From contig CM037783.1 in assembly GCA_021229015.1 (NCBI GenBank), positions 59,867,746 through 59,931,745 on the forward strand: DNA of 64,000 bases, in the 5' to 3' direction. This document shows, piece after piece, positions 5,320 through 27,000 of the stretch. Each line of letters starts with the position of its first letter. The stretch's first letter is position 1. This DNA comes from Solen grandis. Its lineage: Eukaryota; Mollusca; Bivalvia; Adapedonta; Solenidae. Under the pieces are notes generated by a model, which worked only from the letters and a program-made list of their open reading frames with translations, was not told where the DNA came from and did no database searches. A program made the translations under genes and the position numbers.

Positions 5320-6904
5320 TTAGCTCACCTGAGCACAACGTGCTCATGGTGAGCTATTGTGATCGCCTTTTGTCCGTCGTCCGTGCGTGCGTGCGTGCGT
5401 CCGTCGTCAACAATTTGCTTTAAACAACATCTCCTCATGAACCGCTGAAGGGATTTTGACCAAACTTCACAGGAATCATCCTTATGATGCCCTCTATCAA
5501 AGTTGTACAAATTATTCAGATTGGTTAAAAAAGTAGGTCACAGGAGCTAAAAATAGATTTTAAAAATGCAAACTTTGAAAATCTTCTTCTGCAAAACTGC
5601 AAGGCCTAGAGCTTAGATATTTGGTATGTAGCATCATCTTATGGGCCATTACCAAGATTGTACAAATCATAGCCCTACGGTGATAAATGACCCCGCACCA
5701 GGGGTCACTTGTTTTACATAGAGTTATATAGGAAAATCTTTAAAATCTTCTTCTAAACGCAAGGCCTAGAGCTTAGATATTTGGTATGTAGCATCATCTT
5801 ATGGGCCATTACCAAGATTGTACAAATCATACCCTATGGTGATAAATGACCCCGCACCATGGGTCACTTGTTTTACATAGAGTTATATAGGAAAAACTTT
5901 AAAAATCTTCTTCTATGAATCCATAAGGCCTAGAGATTAGATATTTGGTATGAAGCATCATCTTATGGTTCATTACCAAGATTGTACAAATCATGACCCT
6001 ATGGTGATAAATGACCCCGCACCATGGGTCACTTGTTTTACATAGAGTTATATAGAAAAAACTTTAAAAATCTTCTTCTATGAATCCATTAGGCCTAGAG
6101 CTTAGATATTTGGTATGTAGCATCATCTTATGGGCCATTACCAAGATTGTACAAATCATAGCCCTACGATGATAAATGACCCCGCACCAGGGGTCACTTG
6201 TTTTACATAGAGTTATATAGGAAAATCTTTAAAAATCTTCTTCTATGAATCCATTAGGCCTAGAGCTTAGATATTTGGTATGTAGCATCATCTTATGGTT
6301 CATTACCAAGATTGTACAAATCATAGCCCTATGGTGATAAATGACCCCGCACCAGGGGTCACTTGTTTTACATAGAGTTATATAGGAAAATCTTTAAAAA
6401 TCTTCTTCTATGAATCCATAAGGCCTAGAGATTAGATATTTGGTATGAAGCATCATCTTATGGTTTATTACCAAGATTGTACAAATCATAGCCCTATGGT
6501 GATAAATGACCCCGCACCAGGGGTCACTTGTTTTACATAGAGTTATATAGGAAAATCTTTAAAAATCTTCTTCTATGAATCCATTATGCCTAGAGATTAG
6601 ATATTTGGTATGAAGCATCATCTTATGGTTTATTACCAAGATTGTACAAATCATGACCCTATGGTGATAAATGCCCCCGCACCAGGGGTCACTTGTTTAA
6701 CATAGAGTTATATAGGAAAATCTTTAAAAATCTTCTTCTATGAATCCATTATGCCCAGTGCTTATATATTTGGTGTGTAGTATTGTCAGGGCTAAAATGT
6801 TTAAGATTGAGTTATATCAGAATTCTTGTCTGTTTAAAAACCTTGTAATCAGTTGTAGCAATGGTACTCAGGTGAGCGATCCAGGGCCATCATGGCCCTC
6901 TTGT
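5320..6904 (+). mobile_element. Helentron-like element, family A, eight 165-bp units
   Basis: Starts TTTTTAGCTCACC with hairpin GCTCACCTGAGCAC / GTGCTCATGGTGAGC, then a GTCC/GTGC-rich tract and a conserved leader (CAACAATTTGCTTTAAA). A core unit recurs at 5581, 5745, 5905, 6070, 6235, 6400, 6565 and 6730, period 160-165 bp and mostly exactly 165, each with CTTAGATATTTGGTATG and CCCCGCACCA-GGGGTCACTTG. The 3' end has CTCAGGTGAGC (hairpin arm repeated), stem-loop AGGGCCATCATGGCCCT and CTTGTTT. It is non-coding. Confidence 0.9.
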
Positions 6905-17887: not shown

Positions 17888-18041
17888 GACAGCCATTCTA
17901 CCGGAAGCACCCGCTGTCCACATGGATGTCGAGTATGTTGCTGTGTTTCGCGGGGAGCATCATCGCCAATCTTCTCTTGGGAGAGCCGGTCATCACACCA
18001 TTCAAGGACCATAGGAGTGTCCTCATGGCATCTGCTGTCTG
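17888..18041 (+). CDS. TMEM38B: TRIC exon 2 (second transmembrane region)
   Basis: The acceptor follows a pyrimidine tract ending ttcaag at 17887; the donor is CTG|GTGAGT at 18042. The 154-nt exon starts with the last two bases of a split codon, encodes QPFYRKHPLSTW and a hydrophobic helix (SSMLLCFAGSIIANLLLGEP), then VITPFKDHRSVLMASAVW with the final Trp split. It aligns with the TRIC-B segment from the KNP-SSW region to the LLASSIW region. A 57-bp copy of its 3' end recurs at 23583-23639. Confidence 0.93.
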
Positions 18042-21000
18042 GTGAGTGCATCATGGTCACAAAAAATGAAACTGTGAAGAAGATTTCACAAAGACTTGAC
18101 CCTTTTCAGCTGAAACCTAGAGAAATTTGACTATAGTGACCAGGACTTTTTTCCCTTTTTATTTGTGGGCATCCTTCCCTCTGAAATTTCTTAAAATTCA
18201 TTCAAAATGTCCTCAAATTTGTAATAGATTACCAGATTTCTTTCCCAGTGTAAAGAAAATGGTCATTTTCCTTCCATATATGGTATTAAAGCCCCTTTCT
18301 AATCATATAAAAAAGGCATGGTAACTACTGTAGACCCAGATCAGCCTTCAAGTATTGTTCAGGCTGATCAGGTTGTATTCTGTTCACAGCTGCATCTTAT
18401 TGACGTTTTTAAGATTCATGAGGAGACAGTTTGATACTTTAGCTTTCTGTTTGATCAGGCTTTACAAGGGCCCAATGATATTGTGTAAATTGGCATTTTA
18501 TTGAATGCTAATTGGGTAAACATCATCTGGTTTTCATATCTCTAAACCATTTAGGAATGTTTGATGTCTGTGCTAGCTTGTCAGCTAACCTCAGTCGCTT
18601 AATACACATTCTAGCATCATTATTTCTGACATGAAAAACAGCATACATCTGTGTAATATACAAAAAAAAAAGCGATAAAATTGCAAATAATCATGTACCC
18701 ATTAGAATTGTCAAACCGCTTCATGTGTGCTGTGAGAGTATCTAAAAATCAATAAACCGTTACTGACTGAATATAAATGAGACACTTGTCAGTGCGCACC
18801 ATACTTTAGTAACAAATGGTTGGTTTTACATAATCGCTCCACACCAGTTCCACTTCAGTACCATGACACAATTCTAACAAGACAAAAAGTGCCTGTCCAT
18901 CAGTATATTTTTCAGTCAGTTTGGAGGGGTGGGGGGTTCTGAATATCTGAGCAATTGATTCTTAACAGAATGTTTAAACCCCTTTAAACTTTGCTTTGAT
19001 TGGGTTAATGTTTTATTGAATGGTTTTGATCACATCAACCTGATATAGTCACCTTGTATCCATTTTATAACAATTGCTTACTGTTTTTTTTTGTTTTGTT
19101 TTTTTATACAAGACTTAAAGTTGAATGAATCCACTAAACCAGATATATCCACAAACCCATTCTTGTAACATAAACATTTTTAAGAGCACTATGTGATAAT
19201 CAGATCTTGCTTGATTAATGTGTCATTATAAAATGTTACTCAGACTCAAGTATGAGACATTTTGTCCTTTGACCTCACCATTTAAAATCCTATCACTGAA
19301 AAAGCAACTTTTAAGTTGTCTTTGTCATCATTTACAATCTTCAGTTAATTTTCCTTAGAATTCATATCTTAAATGTTCAAGTTGTGCCCTACTTCGGAAT
19401 TATTCAATGTCACTTTGTACGACACATTTATGATAATCAGCAAAAGTTGACATGATACATGCCTTGATTTTGAAGGGCAATTGATAATAAGAAATAAGGG
19501 CCATGATATTGTAAACATGACATGAAACAAAATGTTGTCAGATTTCTAGAAGCAACAAACTGAAACTAGGTCCATATGACCCTCGGTCTCATCACAAAAT
19601 CTTATATTGGGCCACATTTAAAAATATGTTAGTTTACCCTCTCCAGACCCTAGATTTTAAGGTTGGGTAGGTAGGTAGGTAGGTAGGTCAAAAGTTGTTG
19701 TTTTTTCCACCAGAACATTTTATTACAGTTTTCTCTGCCAATTAATAATGCTTTATAAATACTATCAGGTTTGCTTTATTAACTTTAAAATGACCTGCAT
19801 TACTTATTAAATATTTAATTATAGATTATACAATATAAATTTTATCCATGTTGGAAACTAAAAATAAACCTGATAGTGTTTAGCATTGTATAAAATGTAA
19901 AAAAAAAAATGTAAAAAGGAATAAAAATCAAATAAAAATGAGTTCAACTTTATTTTTTCAAATCCCAACAACGTAACATCAACTTTCTTATTTCTATTTT
20001 TAAGTATACCACAATGCATTGGATACCACTTGCACCTGCTCGGCTATACTTTTGTCTGTCATGGAACCTGGGAAGCCATCTCCTGTCTGACTGAAATCCT
20101 CGACAAGGTCGTTGAACAGTTGATCTTTTGCTGAAAAAATGTCACATGTCAGAAATAAATATCCTCCTTGGCCCATAAAATATATAAGAAAAAATGTAGT
20201 GAAACCATAATGATACTTATGCATTACAATCAAGTTTCTTATGGACTTGACTTTCAAACATTTTTTTGCAAAATAAATTTTGAGCGATTTAAGATACATG
20301 TATTGCTTTCTCTCAGCCTTTCATTCCTTTTAAAATATAAAAAAGAAAAGTTGTTCCACTTATCCGAAAAGAACCAAGAAATGAATAATTAATAAATTAT
20401 CATTTTTGGATGTCCTACCTGTGAAGTTGTTAGCTGTTTTGTCCTTTAATTTGGGATTTTTAGAAGCAGCACTAGCATTCATCATAACCGTAAATGCAGA
20501 AATTTCTGTTGATCTATCACTGCATTTTGCATCTCTGTTTTCCAGTCCAACATCCCTATCTCTCCTGATTGTGAAAACTGCATATTTTAAGGATTTGTCA
20601 AAGTCCTTGACAATTCCGATCGTTCCGCCATATCATGTGTGAATGAAACTGTTCCAGACAATTTATTTGACAGCAATAGTGTTAGTTTTATGAAACTTGA
20701 AGTCATCTCCATCCAATACATCATGTAAAACATCATTCCACGTCTCCTCCTCATCGAAAGTGTATAGCCGATTGTTACATATATGTTTACTTTCATCCTC
20801 GCATTTGATGGAACACAGACGAACAAAGCGTGAATGATCGACCGTATTCGATCTTTTTTCTCCCTTGCATGTACACTTAAGAATACGACAGAAAGATACA
20901 TATCGGGAACCAGCTTTGAATACTTCCGAGACTTCCGGTCAGAATTAAATATTGACATAACGGTTCCGGAAGGCTCCGGGTTTGTTTGTTGTTTTTTTCA

Positions 21001-24000
21001 ACAAAAAAGAAGATTTTTAGGCCTAAAAAAAACTTTTGGGTCGCCGGCAAATCATCTCAGTTGGGCGGGCGAGGGGAAACAAACATATTTTTAAATGTGG
21101 CCTTGCACATTTTTCAAAACAGTGTTAGCCATACAACCATATAGGGATGTTCACCCAAAATGCCCGACAGGGTCATTCAGATTTTCATGTGAGGAAGCCT
21201 TCCAGCTGGCTTGCGGTAGGTCGGTGGTTATTCTCGGATGCCTCCATGCATTCGGGGTCTTCCTCCACCTATAATTAGCTGGATGTCGCTATATGACTGA
21301 AATACTGTCGCAGTGATGGTAAACTAAAAAAATCAATCAATCACCCAAAATGAGCCATTTGTGTTCCTGGGGTTAAAACTTATGTTTCAAAATCTATCTA
21401 TTTAAGCAGAGTTAAGGCACCAGTCTGTAAATATGATACAAAGTGGGGGCAGTCATGGACATGCACATTTCTTGCATTACCTGCACGGTTTCTTCAGAAC
21501 TGTGAGAACACATTGTATTTATTACACATAATAATCTGCACATGTTGTTAATCACACATCACTGGTATCCTGCAGTACTTTGCAGTTTTCATCTAATAGA
21601 TGCAGCCTAATCTTTTAAGTCTCACTAATGCAGGTATTTTTTATGTCAGGGTTAGTCACAACTTGTGTAGTAAGTATGTCTACTGTTGAATATGTGAGGA
21701 ATTATTTTTGTTAAAAAAAAAAAAAAATTACCTTAACTCTCTGCCATGAAATTTGAAGTTAAAAGGCTGTCTGCAGATAATTGTTCACTGCATAAAAAGG
21801 ACAAGTTTGAATTCATTTTTATACGCCGCCGGAGGCGGTCGTATATTGGCGTCATCTTCTCCGTCTGTCCGTCCGTCCGTACGTTCGTACGTCCGTACGT
21901 CCATATCTTGTGAACGCAACTCCTCCTACGTTTCTGAATGAATCTTTTCAAAACTTGGTCAATGTCATTACTATAATGGGTAGATGCATGAAGTGGCGAT
22001 TTTCCGGTTCATTGATTTTTACAAGATTTGTGTCCCTTTGAAACTTAGTCTCTGTAGCTGAATGATATTGCAGCCTTGTGAACGCAACTCCTCCTACATT
22101 TCTGAATGAATCTTTTCAAAACTTGGTCAGTGTCATTACTATAATGGGTAGATGTGCATGAAGTGGCGATTTTCCGGTTCATTGATTTTTACATGATTTG
22201 TGTCCCTTTGAAACTTAGTCTCTGTAGTGAATGATATTGCAGCCTTGTGAAGCAACTCCTCCTACATTTCTGAATGAATCTTTTCAAAACTTGGTCAATA
22301 TCATTACTATAATGGGTAGATGTGCATGAAGTGGTGATTTTATGGTTCATTGATTTTTACATGATTTGTGTCCCTTGAAACTAAGTCTCTGTAGCTGTTT
22401 GATATTGCAGCCTTGTGAATGCAACTCCTCCTACATTTCTGAATGAATCTTTTCAAAACTTGGTCAATATCATTACTATAATGGGTAGATGTGCATGAAG
22501 TGGTGATTTTCCGGTTCATTGATTTTTACAAGGTTTGTGTCCCTTGAAACTTAGTCTCTGTAGCTGAATGATATTGCAGCCTTGTGAACGCAACTCCTCC
22601 TACATTTCTGAATGAATCTTTTCAAAACTTGGTCAATATCATTACTATAATGGGTAGATGTGCTTGAAGTGGTGATTTTCCGGTTCATTGATTTTTACAA
22701 GGTTTGTGTCCCTTGAAACTTAGTCTCTGTAGCTGAATGATATTGCAGCCTTGTGAACGCAACTCCTCCTACATTTCTGAATGAATCTTTTTATAACTTG
22801 GTCAATGTCATTACTTTAATGGGTAAATGTGCATGAAGTGGCGATTTTATGGTTCATTGATTTTTACAAGATTTGTGTACCTTGAAACTTAGTCTCTGTA
22901 GCTGATTGATATTGCAGCCTTGTGAACGCAACTCCTCCTACATTTCTGAATGAATCTTTTCAAAACTTGGTCAATATCATTACTATAATGGGTAGATGTG
23001 CATGAAGTGGTGATTTTCCGGTACATTAATTTTTGCAAGATTTGTGTCCCCTGAAACTTAGTCTTTTTAGCTGATTGATATTTCAGCTTTGGGAATGCAA
23101 TTTCTTGTATGTTTCTGACCTAATCTTTTCAAAACTTGGGCAATGTCATTACTATACTGGGTAGATATGCACAAAGCAGGGGCTTTGATGTTCATCAATA
23201 TTTGCAATAGTAATGCCTTTCTAAACATGGTCTCTTTAAAACACAACTCAAGTTTCTAAACAGGTAAAAGTGCATAAGGCAAGGATTTTCTGGTACAGTG
23301 ATTTTTGCAAGAGTTATGGGGAGAAAGAAAAAAGGATTCAAATTGATACTGCTATTTGACCTACTGTCATATTGGAAGCATTTTTAGGGTTCTATCTCTG
23401 TTCAGCTAAATTAATTGGTCTTACAGACTTCATTATGAGGTTATGCTTACAGAAATGTTAAAAGCAATAATTAAAAGACCCCTCTTGGTCTTTATATTTT
23501 GTGGCGGCGTATATTGTGGCATCACTGGCACTCTTGTTCCTCTATTATTTTATATGTGTATATGATCTTTTTCAAACATATTTCATCACACCATTCAAGG
23601 ACCATAGGAGTGTCTTCATGGCATCTGTTGTCTGGTGAGACTGACTTCTTCACTGCTTCTTAACCCTTTCCCTCATAGAGGAAACCATAAAAAGACCTAT
23701 GCGAACAGCATAAAACCAGATCAGCCTGCGAGTAACTCGCAGGCTGATCAGGTTTTATGCTGTTTGCTGCTCCTCAGTGGTCTGGAAATGAGGATTTTGT
23801 AATTAAATTTAGTAAGTCTATATGAGGGAAAGGGTTATTCAACCCTGATAGTGAAAAGGAAAGAAGCAGTCTGTTTTAGTGTATTCAGAATGATGGCAGT
23901 GACATAGCAGTAAGCTGAGATATATTAGAATTATTAACAATTATGTTTCAACCTATTTATTTAGGTCATCATCATTATCCAAAAAGAAATTATATGGACA

Positions 24001-27000
24001 TTTCAGATGCAAAAACTGGCACAAATAAATCAAAAGTAGGTCTATTTTAAACATTGACACATTGGATTTTATCCAAAAATGAACCACTAAGATGTGAAAA
24101 ACAGCAGCAAAAAAACAGAAGCAGACAAAATATGGTATTGATACCAAACAGAACTATTTGTTACAACTTTTTTTGTTGTTAAAATTTACTAGTGCATGTA
24201 TTCCTACTTATTTCCTAGAAGCTCTAATGCAGTATCCTATTTGTATTTCAGAAAGTTTGATGCAATTACACCTTTAAAGTTCATATAATCTTGTTCAGTA
24301 ACACAACAAGACATTCATAATATCACTTAAAGAATAGTTAGTAAAAAACAGAACTGGCAAATGTCTAGTTCATACATACTTGACCAGGGTTGCTTACTGC
24401 TTGTCTTGAAACATGACCCCTTCTTAGACATTGATTTATAGCAAGCCTCACTGAACTTACACATTGCTAATGCAGAATTATTCATTGAATGACAGAGATG
24501 CAATCTTTAACACTGATCTTAGTAGAAGGTCTGTGGCCTCCATGACTCGTGTTTCCCAGACGTAGTTATTAAGCGATGTTGTGATTGATGAGAACTGGTC
24601 GACTGGAGAGAAGAGAAAGATTTACTTCCTAGGTGGAAAAGTTCCGGTTCTAGAAATGAAGAATTGATAGACTTATTAAAGCTTTGACACTCAGATACAC
24701 ATTTTTTCACCATCATTATAAACTGTAAAAAAAACTGAAGTAGACTGAAAAGCTAGTCTGTCAGAAGAAAAAATAATTCATTACCTTCTCAGCTGAAATA
24801 CATTGATAAGTAGCACCCTGTAATAACACCTACATGATACAAACAGGAGAAGACCCAGATCAGACAGCTCCTTTGGGGAGTGGTAATCTCACTTTCACAA
24901 TTAAATTCAGATCAAGAATGGTTTGTGGTTTAGTTTTGCTTTACATGGGCTTAATCCTGTCTAAATTAGGGTAAACACAAAGTATTTAACCAGTATTCTT
25001 GTGTATTCTTGTTTCATTCCAGGTTCCTGATATTTTACTCTCCATTTGACCTGGTATACAAGATAGCACGGTTGCTGCCATTCAAGATGGTGCTGTGCGG
25101 ACTGAAGGAGGTACAGAGAGCACACAAGGTGTACCATGCGGTCAGTCACACGGCCAAGCTCTACCCCAACGCTTACTTGATCATCATCATCGTCGGAACA
25201 GTGAAAGGTGACAGGCCACCATTAGCTATTTCTGATTTTGGGTCAGCTTTTTAGCTCACCTGAGCACCATGTGCTCAAGGTGAGCTTTTGTGATCACCCT
25301 GCGTCCAGTGTCCATCGTCAACAATTTGCTTTAAACGACATCTCCTCTAAAACCGCTGGACAGAATTTGATTAAACCTGGCAGGGGTGAACCTTCACAAA
25401 AGTTGCTAAAATTAACTTGATCCATTTAGAACTCTTGTTGCCATGGCAACAGGAAAAAAAAAAATCATCTCTTTCAAAACTACTGGCCAGATTTCAAAAT
25501 GGTTAAGTACAGGTGTTCCTTGGGTATCCCTCTACAAAGATTGCTAAAATTATTTTGATCTGTAAAAAAAAATGGCCGCTAGGGGCAGGGCTAATCTATA
25601 ATAAGCTAAATGTATATAGTAAAATTTTTAAACGACATCTCTTGAAATCGCTTGACAGAATTTGATAAATCTCAGCAGGGATGATCCTTGGCTGAACCTT
25701 CACAAAAGATGCTAAAACAAAACTTGATCCATGATGAATTCTGGTTGCCATGGCAATGGAAAGAAAAAAATAATGAAAGCTTTTGAAATCATCTCCTTCA
25801 AAACTACTGGCCAGATTTCAAAATGTTTTAGTATGGATGTTTCTTGGGTAACCCCTTACTCAGGTGAGCGATCCAGGTCCTCTATGGTCCTCTTGTTTGA
25901 GGATGTTTCTTGGTCAGACATTTGGTTCTTTTTTGAACAGGTAATGTCAAATGACTTTGTCATGAAGTTTATACATTTTCAGAATTTCTATGTCCAGTCT
26001 ATGAACAGGTTTTTTTATGCCCCCCTTCAAAGAAGAGGGGGTATATTGCTTAGCTCATGTCCGTCGGTCCGTCGGTCTGTCGGTAGACCAGACCTTGTCA
26101 GAGTGATAACTGAAGTTCTATTTGACCTTTAAGTCTCAAACTTCATGTGGTTGTTGCTCATGATTAGTAGATGACCCCTATTGATTTTGGTGTCATTACC
26201 TCAAAGGTCAAGGTCACATGTTGTGTATGTATTAGACCAGACCTTGTCAGAGTGATAACTGAAGTTCTATTTGACCTTTAAGTCTCAAACTTCATGTGGT
26301 TGTTGCTATGATTAGTAGATGCCCCTTGTTTGGTGTCATTACCTCAAAGGTAAGGTCACATGTTGTGTATGTATAATACCAGAACTTGTCCGAGTGATAA
26401 CTTGAGTTCTATTTGACCTTTAAGTCTCAAACTTCTTGTGGTTGTTGCTCATGATTATTGGATGACCCCTAATCGATTTTGGTGTCATTACCTCAAAGGT
26501 CAAGGTCACATGTTGTCTATGTATAATACCAGACTTGTCGAGTGATAACTTAAGTTCTATTTGACCTTTAAGTCTCAAACTTCTGTGGTTGTTGCTTATG
26601 ATTAATAGATGACCTCTATTGATTTGGGTGTCAACATCCAAAGGTCAAGTTCACAATGTCACATGTTGATATATTTTTATTATATAAATGTCTTGCCCAA
26701 GTGATAACTTCTATTTTATTTTTACTCTTAAGGTCCTAACCTAATGTAGTTGTTGCTTATAAATGTAGAAAACCCTGTTTTCAAATTAATAAGTTGGATC
26801 CTTATAAATTTTTTGTACGATTTAAGCACTGTCTGACTAATAACTCAAAATCTCATTGTGTCTGGTTTTATTTCAGTAAATGTTTAGTTCCACATTTTAA
26901 GACATTATATTTTCACTCAAATTTTTGAAGTTTGAGAATTTTTTGTGACAAGCCAACATTATGAAGGCAAACTCCTTGCATGTAATATAGCTATATACAT

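Follow-up and report, generated by a model that had tools for sequence, protein, structure and literature searches.

What kind of element lies in an intron of the TRIC channel gene of the bivalve Solen grandis, and what gene did it once carry? The window analyzed here is a stretch of 64,000 nucleotides (GenBank assembly GCA_021229015.1, contig CM037783.1, positions 59,867,746 to 59,931,745). A preliminary description had reported, at 19610–21102, a mobile element carrying an intron-containing gene, and had assigned neither the gene to a family nor the element to a superfamily. Our analysis indicates that 19610–21102 is very probably the decayed remnant of an ISAzo13/Zator-type cut-and-paste DNA transposon, a non-autonomous copy that has lost internal sequence. 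The ends, the duplication, the identity of the exons with the 5′ end of a transposase gene, the deletion and the related copies can be read directly from the sequence. The supposedly unplaceable gene represents the 5′ portion of a gene for a putative DDE transposase belonging to the element itself, an enzyme related to the ISAzo13/Zator type, and the supposedly unplaceable element combines a transposase of this type with 3-bp target duplications.

The element and its residual gene

The element is bounded by 40-nt inverted repeats (19610–19649 and 21063–21102) that are 88% complementary. A 20-mer of the end, with up to three mismatches allowed, occurred twice in the window against 0.02 expected, and both occurrences were the element ends. 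TTG stands on either side. The matching ends and the TTG duplication described earlier are thus real. The position antisense inside the TRIC intron was likewise confirmed: TRIC exons, located with a human TRIC query, lie on the + strand at 17902–18042 and 25024–25212 with the element in between, and the element's gene is on the minus strand. The features are as follows; L numbers refer to copies elsewhere in the genome, among which L009 and L029 are the most complete.

19607..19609, no strand: left target-site duplication TTG (flank comparison)
19610..19649, + strand: left terminal inverted repeat, beginning GGCCACATTT (40 nt, 88%)
19610..19895, no strand: left end region, with 71% similarity to copies L006 and L007 at their ends
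19707..20006, no strand: stretch in place of the bulk of the L009 transposase gene (comparison with L009 and L029)
20007..20130, − strand: 5′ part of transposase exon 2 (AKDQLFNDLVEDF...NALWY), 76% identical to L029
20131..20418, − strand: transposase intron 1, GT-AG, phase 1, located as in L029
20419..20845, − strand: transposase exon 1, decayed, with several indels and with stops where the frame is shifted; ~68% identity with exon 1 of L029
21028..21102, − strand: right end including the right terminal inverted repeat, with 87% similarity to the L009 end nearest the gene
21103..21105, no strand: right target-site duplication TTG (flank comparison)

The first 97 bp of the element showed 84.5% identity with the left end of L009. 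The left part also contains a short internal inverted repeat (19756–19777 and 19861–19882; 22 nt, 86%).

The two-exon frame with a phase-1 GT-AG intron (20418–20131) was described correctly, and the position and phase of this intron match those in L029. What had been taken for a whole gene of about 216 codons is only the beginning of one roughly five times that length. P0005, a protein of 1095 aa from the bivalve Sinanodonta woodiana, aligned to the window with residues 23–161 and 158–201 only; the window frame corresponds to residues ~23–201 of a ~1,095-aa putative transposase. The RRDRDVGLENRDAKC block aligns where L029 has HRDEEVGFAKPDSEC and P0005 has TRDESVGLDDVSS. Both in-frame stops lie inside a short out-of-frame stretch, in which an 8-base loss opens the shift and a net loss of 1 base restores the frame. 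The conserved residues SNKLSGTVSFTHDMAE at the stop-bearing stretch are readable in another frame, so the CGA-to-TGA change suggested for one of the stops is unnecessary. Much of what had been described as a cysteine-rich N-terminal part was read in the wrong frame or is located upstream of the region with a counterpart in L029.

The match to exon 2 breaks off at 20007, a stop codon comes next at 20002–20000, and similarity to L009 resumes only near the left end. Hence the window copy lacks ~4.7 kb of the layout seen in L009, a segment that begins in exon 2, runs almost to the left end and includes the catalytic domain. Comparison of 19707–20006 with L009 and L029 yielded nothing except a simple-repeat match and one 32-bp match.

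Complete relatives and deletion derivatives

The 1.32 Gb genome contains at least 96 pieces matching the window element, a lower bound obtained with 40 of 68 candidates scored. We compared 24 regions around matching places, two of which overlap (L013 and L029). Within this genome, the gene has relatives bounded by the same ends. Relatives of the two exons are not host genes present in single copy, and the gene is contained in many of the end-bearing copies, the shortest looked at (L021, 370 bp) retaining the ends only. The idea of a mobile element that once carried a functional coding frame with an intron is upheld.

L009 measures 6,420 bp end to end and contains a long interrupted frame. L029, 6,241 bp end to end with CCA on both sides and one shortened inverted repeat, carries the same gene, its largest open stretch comprising 696 codons; the two copies agree at 99.7% over 4,344 bp. 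P0005 aligned to six stretches of L029 that together cover residues 1 to 1094, none of which holds a stop. A complete relative is ~6.2–6.4 kb long, with GGCCACATTT ends and a predicted ~1,095-aa transposase in about six exons. In the predicted protein, an RNase H-like core of the DD43E type is preceded by an N-terminal part and followed by a Cys-rich C-terminus. In L029, the left inverted repeat (reverse complement, ~6300–6341) has suffered an internal loss that leaves the outermost AAATGTGGCC and the exact CCA duplication in place.

Sister families in the same genome encode proteins 40–43% identical to that of L029, and their ends also start with GGCC. One of them comprises six copies (L055–L060, on contigs C6, C15, C16 and C14) that are ~98–99% identical to one another in long blocks; the matched transposase stretch is stop-free in four of the six, with open frames of 935–958 codons. 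These features suggest that this family was recently active.

Other copies have lost internal sequence at different places. By L009 position, one pair of breakpoints is found in both L010 and L028 and another in L011; a third pair is common to L014–L018, L024–L026 and L030, a fourth to L027 and L031, and L019 and L012 show two further pairs. Exon 1 integrity was compared in 14 derivatives, with L027 and L031 left out. Eight of the 14 (L014–L018, L024, L025 and L030) have one 11-base loss in exon 1, and the same copies share a ~600-bp stretch that L009 is without; so the group multiplied after its deletion. One element copy on contig C9 is split exactly at two 100-N runs (L019 1994–2093 and L020 5661–5760) separated by ~50 kb, and each of its outer flanks is TTA; this looks like misplaced contigs or an assembly gap, not an insertion. 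The nearest relatives of the window copy are 67–69% identical in exon 1 and 76% in exon 2, which places the window copy in a subfamily of its own.

KP is a transposition repressor for the P element, and retention of exon 1 without the catalytic part in all 14 derivatives could be read in the same way, with the truncated frame itself kept as an N-terminal transposase fragment that represses transposition. However, exon 1 is uninterrupted in only one of the 14 (L011), which argues against a selected truncated product; it is broken in the other 13 and in the window copy as well. Shared ancestry, as in the eight copies with the common 11-base loss, accounts for the kept region, and L021 does without it. 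We consider such a repressor very unlikely. The residual exons are probably leftovers without function rather than a selected product.

The window copy may have arisen as follows. By analogy with DDE cut-and-paste elements, a more complete relative would supply transposase in trans; the enzyme would recognize the retained ends, release the element and integrate it at a target cut with a 3-bp stagger, thereby duplicating TTG. The internal deletion would most likely stem from interrupted gap repair after excision or from a similar error. The copy would then have decayed, leaving the residual exons behind.

Target sites and the transposase core

Of 16 two-ended copies, 11 carry an exact 3-bp duplication; in four others the flanks share two of the three bases, and in the last they share one. 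In a control that paired the left flank of one copy with the right flank of another, 23 of 240 pairs agreed. A 2-bp flank match was seen in only one of the 16. L029 (CCA/CCA) was initially treated as single-ended owing to its shortened repeat and was added later, bringing the count to 12 of 17, and the pattern YNR fits all 12 exact targets. The count omits L022, L023 and L032 (shared flanks; 5 of 21 mismatches at the other end; no 3-bp match). It also omits the one-ended copies L013, L027 and L031, the L019/L020 copy across the assembly gap, repeat records of counted places (L002–L008), and further matching places on contigs C723, C19, C10, C14, C16, C17 and C419. In the sister families, TAA or TTA stood on both sides in all three two-ended copies among nine regions looked at.

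PIF/Harbinger elements have GG-type ends and a TWA duplication. The GGCC ends seen here, together with TAA or TTA in four of the 11 exact duplications and in all three from the sister families, would fit such an element. However, the other seven, as well as L029 (CCA), are not TWA, and Pfam reported no Harbinger-type transposase domain in seven pieces of L009 or in 48 aligned proteins. Moreover, the core can be aligned to ISAzo13, and in fold it is closest to Mos1. A PIF/Harbinger identity is very improbable.

The putative transposase has a DD43E core (DDE catalytic triad), and its predicted structure is an RNase H-like fold. Profile–profile comparison with ISAzo13, accompanied by a permutation control, gave E values of 3.3e-7 and 8.1e-8, and PF07592 was carried, above its cut-off, by three of the 120 homologues listed. 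Homology of the core to ISAzo13 (PF07592) holds at the family level only. A sequence search of the PDB with the family profile returned nine rows with a best E of 0.095 and no transposase among them, and a scan of viral contigs found 31 stretches fitting a pattern, none confirmed as a relative. The titles and opening parts of abstracts listed in literature searches held no description of this transposon family. Named homologues include those of bivalves, gastropods, Ptychodera, Asterias, Clytia and Rhizophagus (names as given by the sources). The Rhizophagus irregularis proteins P0268 and P0296 are akin to the animal transposase, which possibly reflects a wide spread or horizontal transfer.

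The complete relatives could instead form a separate superfamily, sister to Zator and derived from ISAzo13-like bacterial elements, with the window copy as its deletion derivative. Consistent with this, 117 of the 120 homologues listed have no Pfam label; the protein is ~1,095 aa long against 296–413 aa for the listed ISAzo13 proteins (a search that admits only query-like lengths); and the named relatives include a cnidarian, a hemichordate, an echinoderm and a glomeromycete fungus. On the other hand, 3-bp duplications and a link to ISAzo13 match the description of Zator in excerpts of PMC10045372 and PMC5718144, and the family may simply be Zator. We regard as doubtful a distinct animal and fungal superfamily that arose from ISAzo13-like elements separately from named Zator. 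Just as tentatively, its marks would be GGCC ends, 3-bp YNR targets, a ~1,100-aa transposase and a Cys-rich C-terminus; its N-terminal domain is possibly ubiquitin-like.

Several observations weigh against assigning the window copy to a mobile ISAzo13/Zator-type family. The fold match to Mos1 (VIA-align 9.7) ties, by a within-1 rule, with SETMAR (8.9) and a retroviral integrase (8.9); since retroviral integrases score up to 8.9, the predicted fold alone would not place the family. The three homologues carrying PF07592 are few and were all included in the 48-protein alignment, and, in the scans made of L029 and P0005, the ISAzo13 models of Pfam and NCBIfam gave no match to either. A direct PF07592 search of the genome gave nothing, although all 14 controls were equally silent. 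Five of the 17 two-ended copies, among them L009 (TCA/TAA), lack an exact duplication. Among the relatives, no complete copy of the window's own subfamily was found; the parent of the window copy is inferred only, and the complete elements compared belong to another subfamily. Activity of any copy is putative.

Comparison with known systems

A decayed deletion derivative is an ordinary kind of object, and its identification is nevertheless useful: an unassignable gene becomes a recognizable transposase fragment, and many "uncharacterized" or "hypothetical" animal proteins are tied to one transposase type. Such proteins can pass as host genes, as nearly all of the listed homologues have no Pfam label, and naming them would tidy gene counts.

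Ds and KP are internally deleted elements. Like them, the window copy keeps both ends and has lost the internal transposase sequence of a complete element; in contrast to them, mobilization or repressor activity is known here for none of the copies. Academ elements encode helicase and nuclease domains beside the transposase. Pfam reported no such domain in either the seven pieces of L009 or the aligned set of 48 proteins; Academ is common in bivalves according to excerpts of PMC10294476. Tc1/mariner elements generally make 2-bp TA duplications, as stated in excerpts of PMC10045372. The duplications seen here differ from those of Mos1 and Sleeping Beauty in being 3 bp long and mostly without TA. 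IS481EU was rejected, as the duplications of ~4, 15 or 25 bp given for it in the same excerpts do not fit.

Only a minority of our homologues, three of 120, carry PF07592, a model with a role in defining Zator; this is a difference from that superfamily. The likeness to Zator lies in the 3-bp target duplication and the ISAzo13-related transposase: excerpts of PMC10045372 pair Zator with ISAzo13, both with 3-bp duplications, and excerpts of PMC5718144 contain the same pairing. The likeness is drawn from these descriptions. Among molluscs, Zator is almost exclusively bivalve, according to excerpts of PMC10294476. Bacterial ISAzo13 (PF07592, NF033519) differs in sequence, with ~26% identity in the profile alignment, and in architecture, the ~1,095-aa animal protein having added N-terminal and Cys-rich C-terminal parts. 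The DDE core nevertheless runs in the same order, with the DxK, LDHD, DGG and NPxE blocks aligned, and the family adds one more candidate link between bacterial and eukaryotic transposons.
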